Assembly: GCA_902781895.1 (NCBI GenBank)
Contig: CACZLA010000010.1
Span: 1 to 57,713, forward strand
Length of the DNA: 57,713 bases
Origin: an uncultured Lachnospiraceae bacterium
GTDB lineage: Bacteria; Bacillota; Clostridia; Lachnospirales; Lachnospiraceae
Reading direction: 5' to 3'
Shown here piece after piece: positions 21,519 through 24,847 of this stretch. Under the pieces are notes generated by a model. That model was not told the DNA's origin. It saw nothing but the letters and a program-made list of their open reading frames with translations, and ran no database searches. Positions within the stretch are counted from its first letter, which is position 1. Each line of letters opens with the position of its first letter. Both the position numbers and the translations under genes were made by a program.

Positions 21519-22985
21519 TTACTGTCCGAGAATTCTTACAGCCTTAACAGGAGTTCTGTAGTTGTAAGAAGAAATCTTTATACCATCTCTTGAGTTAGAA
21601 GCATGAACAACTGAACCACCACCGATGTAGATAGCTACGTGTCCGATACCACCACCATTGCTGTAGAAGAGAAGGTCTCCGGCCTGAAGATCTGAAAGAC
21701 TTACTTCTGTACCATATCCTGACTGTGCTGCTGCGTTATGAGGAAGTGAATATCCCCACTGTGCATATACACACATTGTAAATCCTGAACAGTCAACACC
21801 TGATGAAAGGCTTGATCCACCCCAGATGTAAGGAATAACACCAACATACTGACATGCATAGTTAGCAAGGTCGATACCTGTTGATCCTGCAGGTGCTGCT
21901 ATAGAAGGTGCCTCTGTAGGAGCTTCTGTTGCTGCCTCTGTTGCAGGTTCTGCTACTGGCTCAGCTGGCTGCTCTGCTGCCGGCTGTTCTGCCGCTGGCT
22001 GCTCTGCTGCCGGCTGTGCTGCTGGCTGCTCTGCTGCCGGCTGCTCTGCTACTGGCTGTGCTGCCGGCTGTGCCTGCTGATCTGCTGCCGGCTGTGCTGT
22101 CTGACCTGCTGTCTGCTGCTGTGCTACCTGAGCTGCCTGTGCTTCAGCTTCCTGCTGAGCAAGATACTCAAGCCATGCCTTATCAGCTTCTTCCTTAGCT
22201 ATTCTGTCAGCCTCTGCCTGCTCCTCAACTGAAACGGCTCTTGGATTCTCAAATGTTACTGTTACGTACTCACTCTTAACGAATCCTCTTATATCATCAT
22301 CAACTGAAACCTCAGTCCATTCACCACTTGTACTGTATACATAGTACTCTTCACCTTCAGGAACAAGGGTTACACAATCACTTGATTCATCTTTACCCTC
22401 TCTTACCTTAAGTGTTGCAGTATTGATAACGGCTCTTCTTGTGATTCCGTTCTCTTCACACCATACTCCTGCATCATCTCCGTATGCAAGATAATCATTT
22501 GAAATATATCCTACACAGGTACCGGACTCGATCTTTGTCCACTCAGGTCCGATCTCATCTACTAAGCAGACACCACCTCTATCAAGAACACCGATAACTT
22601 CAGAATCACCGTTTGCCTCTGTTCTGATGTTAACCTTGCTGTCTGCAGTTACTACTGCTCTGTCCTGGAACTGTGAATATACCTTTGTATCTGTAGGAGA
22701 AGCATCTGTTACTGTAGCTTCTGCAGCCTCTGCCTCTGTTGCAGCCTCTGCTGCGGCAGCTTCCTCTGCTGCGATTGTCTCCTTTGTTACAGCTCCTGCA
22801 GTAAGATCTGATATAGGATCTTCTGTTTCACCCTGTGCTAAATACTCACTAACCTTGTTTGAAATTCCCACATTCGATGAGTCATATGACTGTCCTGCTT
22901 CAACAGATTTTTGAATTCCAAATCCTGATGCGAACATTGCACTTGCAAGACAAACAGCAACGACTCTCTTATTTGGTTTATACAT
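21519..22985 (-). CDS. Secreted SH3-domain NlpC/P60 cell-wall hydrolase
   Basis: The 488-residue protein has a signal sequence (1-31) and an Ala/Glu/Thr-rich linker. Two bacterial SH3 domains follow (about 107-165, starting DRAVVTADSKVNIRTEA, and about 180-250), then an Ala/Gln/Pro low-complexity spacer (about 260-365). The C-terminal NlpC/P60 domain has Cys in DCSGFTMCVY and His in GIGHVAIYIGGG. It should cleave peptidoglycan stem peptides outside the cell. The promoter region carries two WalR-like boxes, which fits a main growth-phase autolysin. The Gln/Ala/Pro spacer is encoded by repetitive GCTGC-rich DNA around 21930-22140 and may vary in length between strains. Confidence 0.92.
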   Translation of the reverse strand: MYKPNKRVVAVCLASAMFASGFGIQKSVEAGQSYDSSNVGISNKVSEYLAQGETEDPISDLTAGAVTKETIAAEEAAAAEAATEAEAAEATVTDASPTDTKVYSQFQDRAVVTADSKVNIRTEANGDSEVIGVLDRGGVCLVDEIGPEWTKIESGTCVGYISNDYLAYGDDAGVWCEENGITRRAVINTATLKVREGKDESSDCVTLVPEGEEYYVYSTSGEWTEVSVDDDIRGFVKSEYVTVTFENPRAVSVEEQAEADRIAKEEADKAWLEYLAQQEAEAQAAQVAQQQTAGQTAQPAADQQAQPAAQPVAEQPAAEQPAAQPAAEQPAAEQPAAEQPAEPVAEPATEAATEAPTEAPSIAAPAGSTGIDLANYACQYVGVIPYIWGGSSLSSGVDCSGFTMCVYAQWGYSLPHNAAAQSGYGTEVSLSDLQAGDLLFYSNGGGIGHVAIYIGGGSVVHASNSRDGIKISSYNYRTPVKAVRILGQ

Positions 22986-23030
22986 TATGTAACCTCCTTA
23001 GGTTATACATGGCACAATATCTTGTGCTTT

Positions 23031-23078
23031 GTTACAAAATTTTTACATCCAACGATTAATTGTTACAAAACTGTTACG
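23031..23078 (-). promoter_or_regulatory. Two WalR-like boxes in the leader of the NlpC/P60 gene
   Basis: On the minus strand TGTAAA-AATTT-TGTAAC (23031-23047) matches the published WalR (YycF) consensus TGTWAH-N5-TGTWAH exactly. CGTAAC-AGTTT-TGTAAC (23062-23078) matches with one change. Their starts are 31 bp apart, about three helical turns. They lie just downstream of the predicted -10, a position that suggests repression or a second, downstream promoter. Confidence 0.6.
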
Positions 23079-23083
23079 CGACT

Positions 23084-23112
23084 ATAATACCACGAACCAG
23101 GCCTCTTGTCAA
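23084..23112 (-). promoter_or_regulatory. Promoter of the SH3-NlpC/P60 gene
   Basis: TTGACA (23107-23112), 17 bases, then TATTAT (23084-23089) on the minus strand: a consensus -35 with a good -10. Confidence 0.75.
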
Positions 23113-23158
23113 TACACAATCGCCTTGAAATAAAGGGATTTTTGTGGTAATTTGGTAC

Positions 23159-23375
23159 TATTCACAGCGTATGATATAAGATATCAATATGACTGCTTGC
23201 AGGCTTCTATTGATATCTTATATCATGCTTACTGCGAAGCAGTGGCTTTCTAATCATGAGGGATGTGTCTGCGAAGCAGACAGTAGAGTATCGCATATAC
23301 AGCTTGTTTATGCTTGCATAATAACAAGCTATATGCGAGTACGTACATCCCGAATGTTAGGAAGCGCTGTGAATA
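23159..23375. repeat. Multi-branched inverted-repeat element E1 (GCGAAGC hairpins)
   Basis: This 217-bp stretch between divergent genes is almost wholly self-complementary. The outer arms TATTCACAGCG (23159-23169) and CGCTGTGAATA (23365-23375) are perfect. Inside are a 19-bp perfect hairpin (23171-23189 with 23208-23226), ACTGC-GAA-GCAGT (23231-23243), and a 9-bp closing stem (23245-23253 with 23357-23365). Within that stem lie a 7-bp stem (23260-23266 with 23345-23351), GTCTGC-GAA-GCAGAC (23267-23281), and a 16-bp hairpin (23291-23308 with 23323-23338, two bases bulged). It could be a non-autonomous mobile repeat or a structured RNA leader for murT. Confidence 0.8.
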
Positions 23376-23422
23376 TATGCTCACGATTATCCTATATATA
23401 GATGATATACGGAGAAATGTCA

Positions 23423-24847
23423 ATGAAAAATCATAATCCAATCAAAATATTTTTATCGGTCTCGGCCTGTAAGCTTACAAGAACAGCATTAAGAGTTCTC
23501 CACAAAGGAGGAACAACTCTTCCGGGACGTTCTGCAATGCTATTTGATAAGAAGATTCTTGAAGTTGTTTCCAGAGGAATGAAGATAATAGTAGTTACCG
23601 GAACAAACGGTAAGACAACAACCTGCAGTATGCTTCGTAATTCCCTTCAGGAAGCAGGCATAGAACCCTTGTCAAATATTTCCGGAGCAAATCTGCTTAC
23701 CGGTATTACAGCCGAGTTTACTGCTCAGGCAACTCTCACAGGTAAACCCAAAAAGAAATATGCCATAGTCGAATGTGATGAAGGCGCTCTGAAAAAGGTG
23801 GTTCCCCTTATGAAACCCAGAGTTATAGTAGTAACTAACCTCTTCAGAGATCAGCTGGACCGTTACGGCGAGGTTATGCACACTCTTGAGGAAATCCGAA
23901 ACGGCGTTAAACTTGCTCCGAAGTCAAAGCTCTGCCTGAATGCGGACTGTTCACTTACGGCTTCTCTTGCAAACGATGTCAAAAATCCGGTTCATTATTA
24001 CGGAATCAGTACTTCATGTATTAATAATGAAGAAACTGCCGAAGCTGCCGATTCACTATCCGATGCAAAGTACTGCATCAAATGCGGTGCCGAATATGAA
24101 TATGACTTCCATACATATGCCCATCTGGGAGGCTTCAAATGCCCGAAATGCGGATACAAGAGAATGGATCCCGATACAGAGATCATTTCCATAGATAAGA
24201 TAGCAGCAAAGGGAAGCGATTTTACCACTGTATTTCACAATAAGAAAAAGAATACTTCAGAAACCGAGAAGATCCATCTTGGACTTCCGGCTCTCTACAA
24301 TATATATAACGGTCTTGCTGCTATGGCTGCTTATGAGGCTGCCGGCTGGAAGAGAAAGGCCATCACCTCTTCTCTTGCAAATGTAAGTTCAAGCTTCGGT
24401 CGAATGGAAACCTTCCTATATAATAATGTTGAAATCCAGATGATCCTTGTCAAGAATCCGGCAGGCTGCAACCAGTCGCTTACATATCTGTCATCTCTGG
24501 ATGAAGATTATGTTGCTGTATTCTGCCTGAATGATAAAACAGCAGACGGACATGATATATCATGGATATGGGACGCTGACCATGAAAAGGTAGCTCAGGA
24601 TCCTCACTGTAAATATATATATGTTTCAGGAACCAGAGCAACCGATATGCAGATACGACTGAAATATGCCGATGCTGACACTAGCAAGATAATGCTCGTA
24701 GAAGATCAGACACAGCTTTTAAATAAAATGACAAGCCATAAGCTCCCTGTCTTCATTCTTCCGAACTACACATCCATGCTCACCTTAAGAGCCGTTGTCA
24801 GTGAAGCTACCGGAAAAAAAGAATTCTGGAAAGACCAGAAGAACTGA
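23423..24847 (+). CDS. murT: Lipid II isoglutaminyl synthase, MurT ligase subunit
   Basis: MurT and GatD together amidate the D-glutamate of lipid II to D-isoglutamine. The 474-residue Mur-ligase-like protein has the ATP loop GTNGKTT (60-66) and a rubredoxin-like zinc ribbon (Cys218, Cys221, Cys240, Cys243), the MurT hallmark. The C-terminal MurT domain follows (about 330-474). I place the start at the ATG at 23423 (MKNHNPIKIF), eight bases after GGAG. Further in-frame ATGs at 23402 and 23417 have poorer spacing. It is followed after 13 bases by gatD. Confidence 0.95.
   Translation: MKNHNPIKIFLSVSACKLTRTALRVLHKGGTTLPGRSAMLFDKKILEVVSRGMKIIVVTGTNGKTTTCSMLRNSLQEAGIEPLSNISGANLLTGITAEFTAQATLTGKPKKKYAIVECDEGALKKVVPLMKPRVIVVTNLFRDQLDRYGEVMHTLEEIRNGVKLAPKSKLCLNADCSLTASLANDVKNPVHYYGISTSCINNEETAEAADSLSDAKYCIKCGAEYEYDFHTYAHLGGFKCPKCGYKRMDPDTEIISIDKIAAKGSDFTTVFHNKKKNTSETEKIHLGLPALYNIYNGLAAMAAYEAAGWKRKAITSSLANVSSSFGRMETFLYNNVEIQMILVKNPAGCNQSLTYLSSLDEDYVAVFCLNDKTADGHDISWIWDADHEKVAQDPHCKYIYVSGTRATDMQIRLKYADADTSKIMLVEDQTQLLNKMTSHKLPVFILPNYTSMLTLRAVVSEATGKKEFWKDQKN

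Follow-up and report, generated by a model that had tools for sequence, protein, structure and literature searches.

Folded, dispersed, non-coding repeats of the REP/RAYT and IS200/IS605 kinds are not known to leave a target duplication when they move. ERIC and NEMIS/Correia are MITEs for which an action of the transcript on mRNA has been proposed, orientation-dependent in the case of ERIC (PMC2229807, in the part of the text available). An effect on mRNA is likewise proposed for the BOX elements of Streptococcus pneumoniae, which are over-represented between convergent genes (PMC3049150, again in the available part). In 2010 the Clostridiales-1 RNA (RF01699) was classed as probably an RNA and probably not cis-regulatory (PMC2864571, as far as the accessible part of the listing goes), and Rfam gives its type as Gene; sRNA. 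To judge by titles and the opening of abstracts, none of the five papers that name Clostridiales-1 or RF01699 in the literature searched appears to deal with its function.

How does the structured element upstream of a murT-like gene compare with these systems? It lies in a stretch of 57,713 nucleotides from an uncultured Lachnospiraceae bacterium, here called the window. By description, as given in the available part of PMC3049150, it shares with BOX a modular, structured, dispersed and, presumably, co-transcribed make-up with tandem inner modules; BOX favours places between convergent genes, whereas this element lies mostly sense between co-directional ones. ERIC and NEMIS/Correia, as described in the parts available, have other ends, and the core of the present element is far more branched, with conserved unpaired motifs. 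REP/RAYT and IS200/IS605 repeats are likewise folded, dispersed and non-coding, but the present element has 8-bp duplications, inverted-repeat ends and no association with a Y1 transposase. A literature search for a described repeat of this kind returned nothing relevant. The reading that we prefer, and hold to be probable, is that of a MITE whose transcript takes on a conserved fold within mRNA leaders and intergenic gaps.

Fold and parts of the window copy

The features of the window copy are collected in table 1. The stems named in the original prediction (an outer arm, a long hairpin, nested stems, a last hairpin and two hairpins with GCGAAGC) are all present. Folded as DNA, 23154-23380 reaches -58.5 kcal/mol against -25.9 (s.d. 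2.8) for shuffled sequences (z = -11.6); folded as RNA it reaches -107 against -60.5 (s.d. 3.9, z = -12.0). In neither case is this equalled by any of 200 shuffles. No coding frame had been expected across the element, and the ORF list of the window indeed holds none of at least 80 aa that spans it. Element ends from MFE folding were unreliable and are left out. Comparison with relatives suggests that the outer arm belongs to a longer terminal repeat (23154-23169/23365-23380), of which it forms the inner portion.

Table 1. Features of the window copy and its surroundings.
Feature	Position	Strand	Sequence or description	Basis
Promoter-like sequence	23125..23153	+	TTGAAA (23125-23130), 17 nt, TAATTT (23148-23153); abuts the element	relatives only
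5' terminal repeat	23154..23169	+	GGTACTATTCACAGCG; outer stem; family form GTTACTATTCACAG	
Outer arm	23159-23169/23365-23375		TATTCACAGCG/CGCTGTGAATA; stem within the terminal repeat	
H1	23169..23228	+	long hairpin, tip CTGCTTGCAG; stem sequence varies among copies yet pairs	
H2	23231..23243	+	hairpin ACTGCGAAGCAGT; contains GCGAAGC; GAA loop	
Core	23244..23364	+	P2, tandem GA/GA, P3 and three-way junction	R1 match, pair counts
P2	23244-23257/23354-23364	+	stem	
Tandem GA/GA	23258-23259/23352-23353	+		
P3	23260-23266/23345-23351	+	stem	
H3	23267..23281	+	hairpin GTCTGCGAAGCAGAC; contains GCGAAGC; GAA loop	
Junction	23282..23287	+	unpaired AGTAGA	
H4	23288..23342	+	last hairpin, long form, tip ATGCTTGCAT	
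3' terminal repeat	23365..23380	+	CGCTGTGAATATATGC; outer stem; outer end worn	
murT-like gene	23402..24847	+	Mur ligase family; neighbour outside the element	

A stem containing the tandem GA/GA leads to a three-way junction, which holds H3, the unpaired AGTAGA and H4. Among 105 genus cores AGTAGA is the commonest junction form (36 cores), followed by AATAGA (14), GGTAGA (9) and GATAGA (8). Many other copies carry a short form of H4 (e.g. GCACGAAGTGC).

The upstream regions of murT in relatives have TTGAAA-17-TACYYT-like boxes at the matching place. Since a scan for consensus promoters missed TTGAAA-17-TAATTT, in which TAATTT agrees with TATAAT at three of six positions, the promoter-like sequence rests on the comparison with relatives. 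Relatives also suggest a start of the murT-like gene at 23417, after GGAG. No terminator was found where the window copy ends on its 3' side; the sole terminator-like match in 22900-23500 is H2.

Copies and distribution

A plain DNA search found matches in 20 of 99 relatives, all of the same genus, to which 61 of the 99 belong. Alignment A1 mixes two subtypes and gives a poor consensus. The covariance model used here, R1, describes the core and was built from 20 copies with short H4. In the window it finds one copy (64.1 bits at 23246-23366); its other match there is at chance level (E = 2). R1 matches occur in 29 of the 61 genus genomes, with 1 to 13 per genome, in 31 of 299 family genomes and in 4 of 391 genomes across the class, all four of the same family (own genome counted in both of the latter). 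As the genomes are drafts of varied completeness and stricter filters were applied, these counts are lower bounds. In a named collection the records with matches (46 stretches) bear mostly Lachnospiraceae or Eubacterium labels, and many are from the rumen. Carriage by phage or plasmid was considered and rejected: searches of phages, plasmids and viral contigs, the last probed with one exact pattern, gave no match.

Empty sites, ends and target duplications

Is the site in front of murT usually occupied? Of 24 murT loci, one holds a copy that R1 recognises. We read 22 of the other 23 by eye and saw no full copy; three of these have less than 230 nt of upstream sequence and several have other upstream neighbours. 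The two closest relatives (85 and 83% protein identity) have a promoter-like stretch and a leader, without the element. Between infA and rpmJ the element is found by R1 in 1 of 30 loci, where it begins at the stop codon of infA. A gap that separates two ABC transporter genes gives an R1 match in 4 of 30 loci (26 gaps parsed), and the stems of these copies are very different; the corresponding gap is 11 nt in the near relative G033, and G026 retains an apparent single arm. Two minor observations belong here. One murT locus (L217) contains a short palindrome, perhaps a remnant, and four infA-rpmJ gaps that are negative with R1 (L318, L320, L324, L325) hold other inserts that are structured and have similar hairpins.

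Terminal inverted repeats of about 14 bp were found in two sets of entries, 22 (20 loci; L004 and L035 each twice) with GTTACTATTCAC ends and 13 with GTAACAGTTCAG ends; several copies end in other sequences. In the GTTACTATTCAC set an 8-bp flank duplication is exact in one entry and 7/8 in two, and the mean 8-bp flank identity is 0.45 against 0.31. In the GTAACAGTTCAG set the 8-bp duplication is exact in four entries, with a mean identity of 0.66 against 0.38. None of 500 shuffles reaches either value. Duplication lengths of 7 and 9 show no clear excess; a weaker excess, reached by 3 to 9 of 500 shuffles, is seen at 3 and 6 bp in the GTTACTATTCAC set and at 6 and 10 bp in the GTAACAGTTCAG set. 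The window copy has no readable duplication, and its own sub-family is the one with an exact duplication in 1 of 22 entries.

The copies are dispersed, the family shows 8-bp duplications and the loci are mostly empty; we therefore see a MITE-like element with transposase-type ends. It has the marks of a MITE, being non-coding, short and dispersed, with terminal inverted repeats and, at the family level, a target duplication. A scan of the fetched loci for long end pairs found no transposase with the element's ends; it returned two pairs, which we read as neighbouring copies.

Covariation and the folding strand

In alignment A3 double changes occur at 8 of the 20 core pairs and one-sided variation at none, and 97.8% of 400 cells pair. 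In 500 shuffles neither the percentage of paired cells nor the counts of double changes nor the covariation score is equalled, while further pair types are no more numerous than in shuffles (189/500). Such compensatory changes, like the copies in related genomes, had been made a hallmark by the original prediction, and both are present. The larger alignments, of 105 distinct cores from the genus and 46 from other genera, were fitted with the covariance model and are biased toward it. In these one core pair, an example of wide variation, is A-T in 63, G-C in 23, T-A in 14 and C-G in 3 cores. The unpaired GA/GA is kept in 88 of the 105 genus cores and in 43 of the 46 others.

Does the fold form in RNA or in DNA? 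Among standard core pairs G-U accounts for 20 of 1999 in the genus and 23 of 866 in other genera, as against 9 of 94 for the nine tRNA genes that served as a small control. Over all core cells G-U and A-C number 20 and 27 in the genus, 23 and 15 in other genera; with the two so nearly equal, the core does not favour RNA over DNA as the folding form. The sequence of H1 is very different from locus to locus, pairing being kept; in 99 hairpins with 2362 Watson-Crick pairs (arms capped at 30) we counted 28 G-T, 5 A-C and 58 transversion mismatches in isolation. The excess of G-T over A-C (p = 7e-5) indicates the + strand as the folding strand.

What was said of the stability of GCGAAGC extends further, for GNA triloops form 227 of the 283 scored hairpin loops of the genus copies, and GNA and GNNA loops are those whose exceptional stability in DNA has been described (PMC4686876, in the part available). 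By hairpin, the GNA counts are 73/92 for H2, 85/104 for H3 and 69/87 for H4 in 106 genus cores, and 9/22, 30/43 and 29/41 in 45 cores of other genera.

Orientation and neighbours

We collapsed orthologues among 137 loci to obtain 102 clusters. Where the neighbours are co-directional, the element is sense in 51 clusters and antisense in 10 (p = 5e-8), with neighbour ORFs taken from a simple script, some of which may be wrong. By group the figures are 36 against 6 in the genus and 16 against 4 elsewhere. Many copies have co-directional neighbours at a short distance on either side, and the element often adjoins a stop codon or a promoter. Of 41 copies from other genera, 13 have an exact TATAAT within the same 10-nt bin ahead of the first hairpin; in the genus set the fullest bin has 6 of 92, three of them orthologues. 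The orientation bias could be due in part to replication. In the single complete genome (G005) the places divide 4 against 4 by replication strand, among the seven of eight R1 matches listed, with a tandem pair counted twice and the origin assumed at dnaA.

We record two further features of the neighbourhood. The tRNA-Leu gene neighbours are one orthologous set of six loci (L116, L139, L141, L182, L184, L190) from several species, with differing stems. At L118, L170, L177 and L191 the upstream frame apparently ends inside the element, which supplies the last codons and the stop.

Relation to the Clostridiales-1 RNA

An Rfam scan of the window found no relevant family; RF01699 emerged from other copies. 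The window copy scores 22.6 bits against RF01699, out of register and below the cut-off of 48 bits, and is therefore a sister variant of that family and not a member. Other R1 copies score 34-42 bits, also below the cut-off; one R1 place (G043:C17) exceeds it with 58.8 bits. H1 and the outer stem account for much of these scores, and the inner register is sometimes wrong. Below the cut-off and on the same strand, RF01699 overlaps R1 cores in 3 of 8 sources; in a second set it does so in 6 of 20 and abuts a seventh core (L245). A fourth hit in the first set, the infA locus L320, which lacks an R1 match, scores 43.8 bits. Conversely, 13 of 26 RF01699 loci give an R1 match at E <= 1, 7 of them at E < 0.002, and every match is on the strand of RF01699.

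The two families are alike in the outer stem, the long hairpin tipped by GCTTGC, the tandem GA/GA stem, a GA-[hairpin]-GGA module and the dispersal of copies, besides the same-strand matches at some shared places. A loose pattern for the GA/GA stem fits all of the 21 RF01699 sequences, as well as 67 of 89 short genus cores (maxima of 6 and 8 in 100 shuffles); one for the module fits 13 of 21 and 47 of 89 (shuffle maxima 2 and 4, reverse strand 0 and 0). The module lies within the GA/GA stem in the R1 type, whereas in RF01699 it forms a separate 3' stem. The ends differ as well: R1-type copies have GTTACTATTCAC and 8-bp duplications, RF01699 has TGATACCAGGGTC and 5-bp duplications.

RF01699 occurs in 161 of 299 family genomes (130 above the cut-off; at most nine candidates scored per genome) and in 49 of the 61 genus genomes. 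Fourteen copies have the expected 5' end, 13 of them with a readable 3' end and one without. With 3' boundaries placed by eye, these 13 show 5-bp duplications, exact in 6 where 0.78 are expected, and none of 1000 shuffles reaches their mean identity. RF01699 appears to belong to a mobile unit that has TGATACCAGGGTCAAAAGG ends; in our reading the core is also carried by a second type of mobile unit. Its orientation, 8 sense against 4 antisense, is not significant. At several RF01699 loci (L369, L371, L372, L378, L381, L384, L386 and others) a further hairpin downstream ends in CATCA, with 5-bp flank duplications.

Alternative readings

The original prediction offered two possibilities, a non-autonomous element that is recognised in its folded form as single-stranded DNA, like REP/RAYT or IS200/IS605 elements, or a structured RNA upstream of murT. 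That the element is non-autonomous is borne out by its dispersed copies, empty sites and duplications, the last legible at the family level and not in the window copy. Might single-stranded DNA be its working form, the folded non-template strand being bound by a recombinase or replication protein? GNA loops and the rarity of G-U in the core speak for this and keep a single-stranded-DNA role open, but inverted-repeat ends with 8-bp duplications do not suit it. Nor does the Y1 transposase (PF01797) track the carriers: it matches 36 of the 61 genus genomes but has no match in 13 of the 29 carriers, and 6 of these 13 have a completeness of 90% or more and a contamination of 5% or less. We regard that working form as improbable, and on the same two grounds movement by a RAYT or IS200/IS605 system is rejected. 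The second possibility stood in part. The sense bias, the leader position and the relation to RF01699 make an RNA plausible; murT specificity did not survive. A cis-regulatory leader peculiar to murT would fit an element placed between promoter-like sequence and murT start, but with 1 of 24 murT loci filled, and no common class of gene downstream of other copies (77 of 97 ORFs scanned; 128 Pfam families, none listed in more than 3 of the 77), it is largely refuted already and its chances are very slight.

Two more readings were weighed. Template switching in replication could copy the arms of a palindrome onto each other, which would produce covariation in a plain MITE without selection. Nearly all changes are indeed Watson-Crick doubles, none one-sided in A3, and H1 is rewritten between loci. 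Yet unpaired positions, the GA/GA and the junction sequence, are kept too, the H1 mismatches are asymmetric between strands, and the element is biased to sense; we consider this explanation unlikely, about on a par with the single-stranded one. A trans-acting small RNA, as the Rfam type of Clostridiales-1 would have it, draws support from the TATAAT closely preceding 13 of the 41 copies in other genera. But many copies sit in short gaps between co-directional genes, and the window copy has H2, inside it, as its only terminator-like match; such a role strikes us as quite unlikely.

A proposed reading: a transcribed MITE

Let us return to the preferred reading, a MITE whose transcript folds. The element is non-autonomous and would be moved in trans by a transposase that makes 8-bp target duplications. 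Its interior is a conserved multi-branched core of the Clostridiales-1 kind, which marks it off from an ordinary MITE. Transposition of such elements needs mainly the ends, so a conserved inside calls for another reason; the sense bias and the placement of copies in leaders and gaps suggest that it lies in the transcript. Copies are found mainly where the + strand would be transcribed. Lying directly after promoter-like sequence, the window copy is presumably the first part of the murT leader. In the likeliest mode of action the RNA would fold during synthesis. Closed by the outer stem, it would form a compact body that resists nucleases, either at the 5' terminus of a message or in the interval from a stop codon to the following gene. 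Such a fold could keep the insert clear of ribosomes and ribonucleases and so make insertions tolerable; it may also alter the stability or processing of the host message.

We put forward a wider idea tentatively. The folded RNA core is possibly the cargo of at least two unrelated transposition systems of the Lachnospiraceae, with different ends and 8-bp or 5-bp duplications, and kept because its transcript makes insertions in operons and leaders harmless or useful, in effect an RNA insulator. If this were true, a mobile element would be able to live inside transcription units. The data indicate that RF01699 and its sister family spread by transposition and that the sister family lies mostly sense in intergenic gaps. 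Whether the fold protects or processes host messages therefore becomes a testable question. Orthologous sites offer natural sets in which the stems are rewritten and the fold and a few unpaired motifs are retained.

Shortened and tandem copies

A shortened copy in the genome of the window (G000:C11:11025-11096; L003, L007) consists of the outer stem and H1 and lacks the core, as if this had been lost by deletion between repeats. Inner modules also occur in tandem, for example four in G031:C32. The genome of the window has a tandem array of its own, of core units of about 120 bp, in an operon leader (G000:C12, about 66740-67150; L008, L281). A candidate transposase ORF beside it was rejected, having no Pfam match; this and a further ORF there look, by eye and by motif, like parts of an SMC-type (Wadjet-like) operon. 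The third unit of the array is cut and runs into GAGGAAAACCATG, an apparent ribosome site with the start of the next gene.
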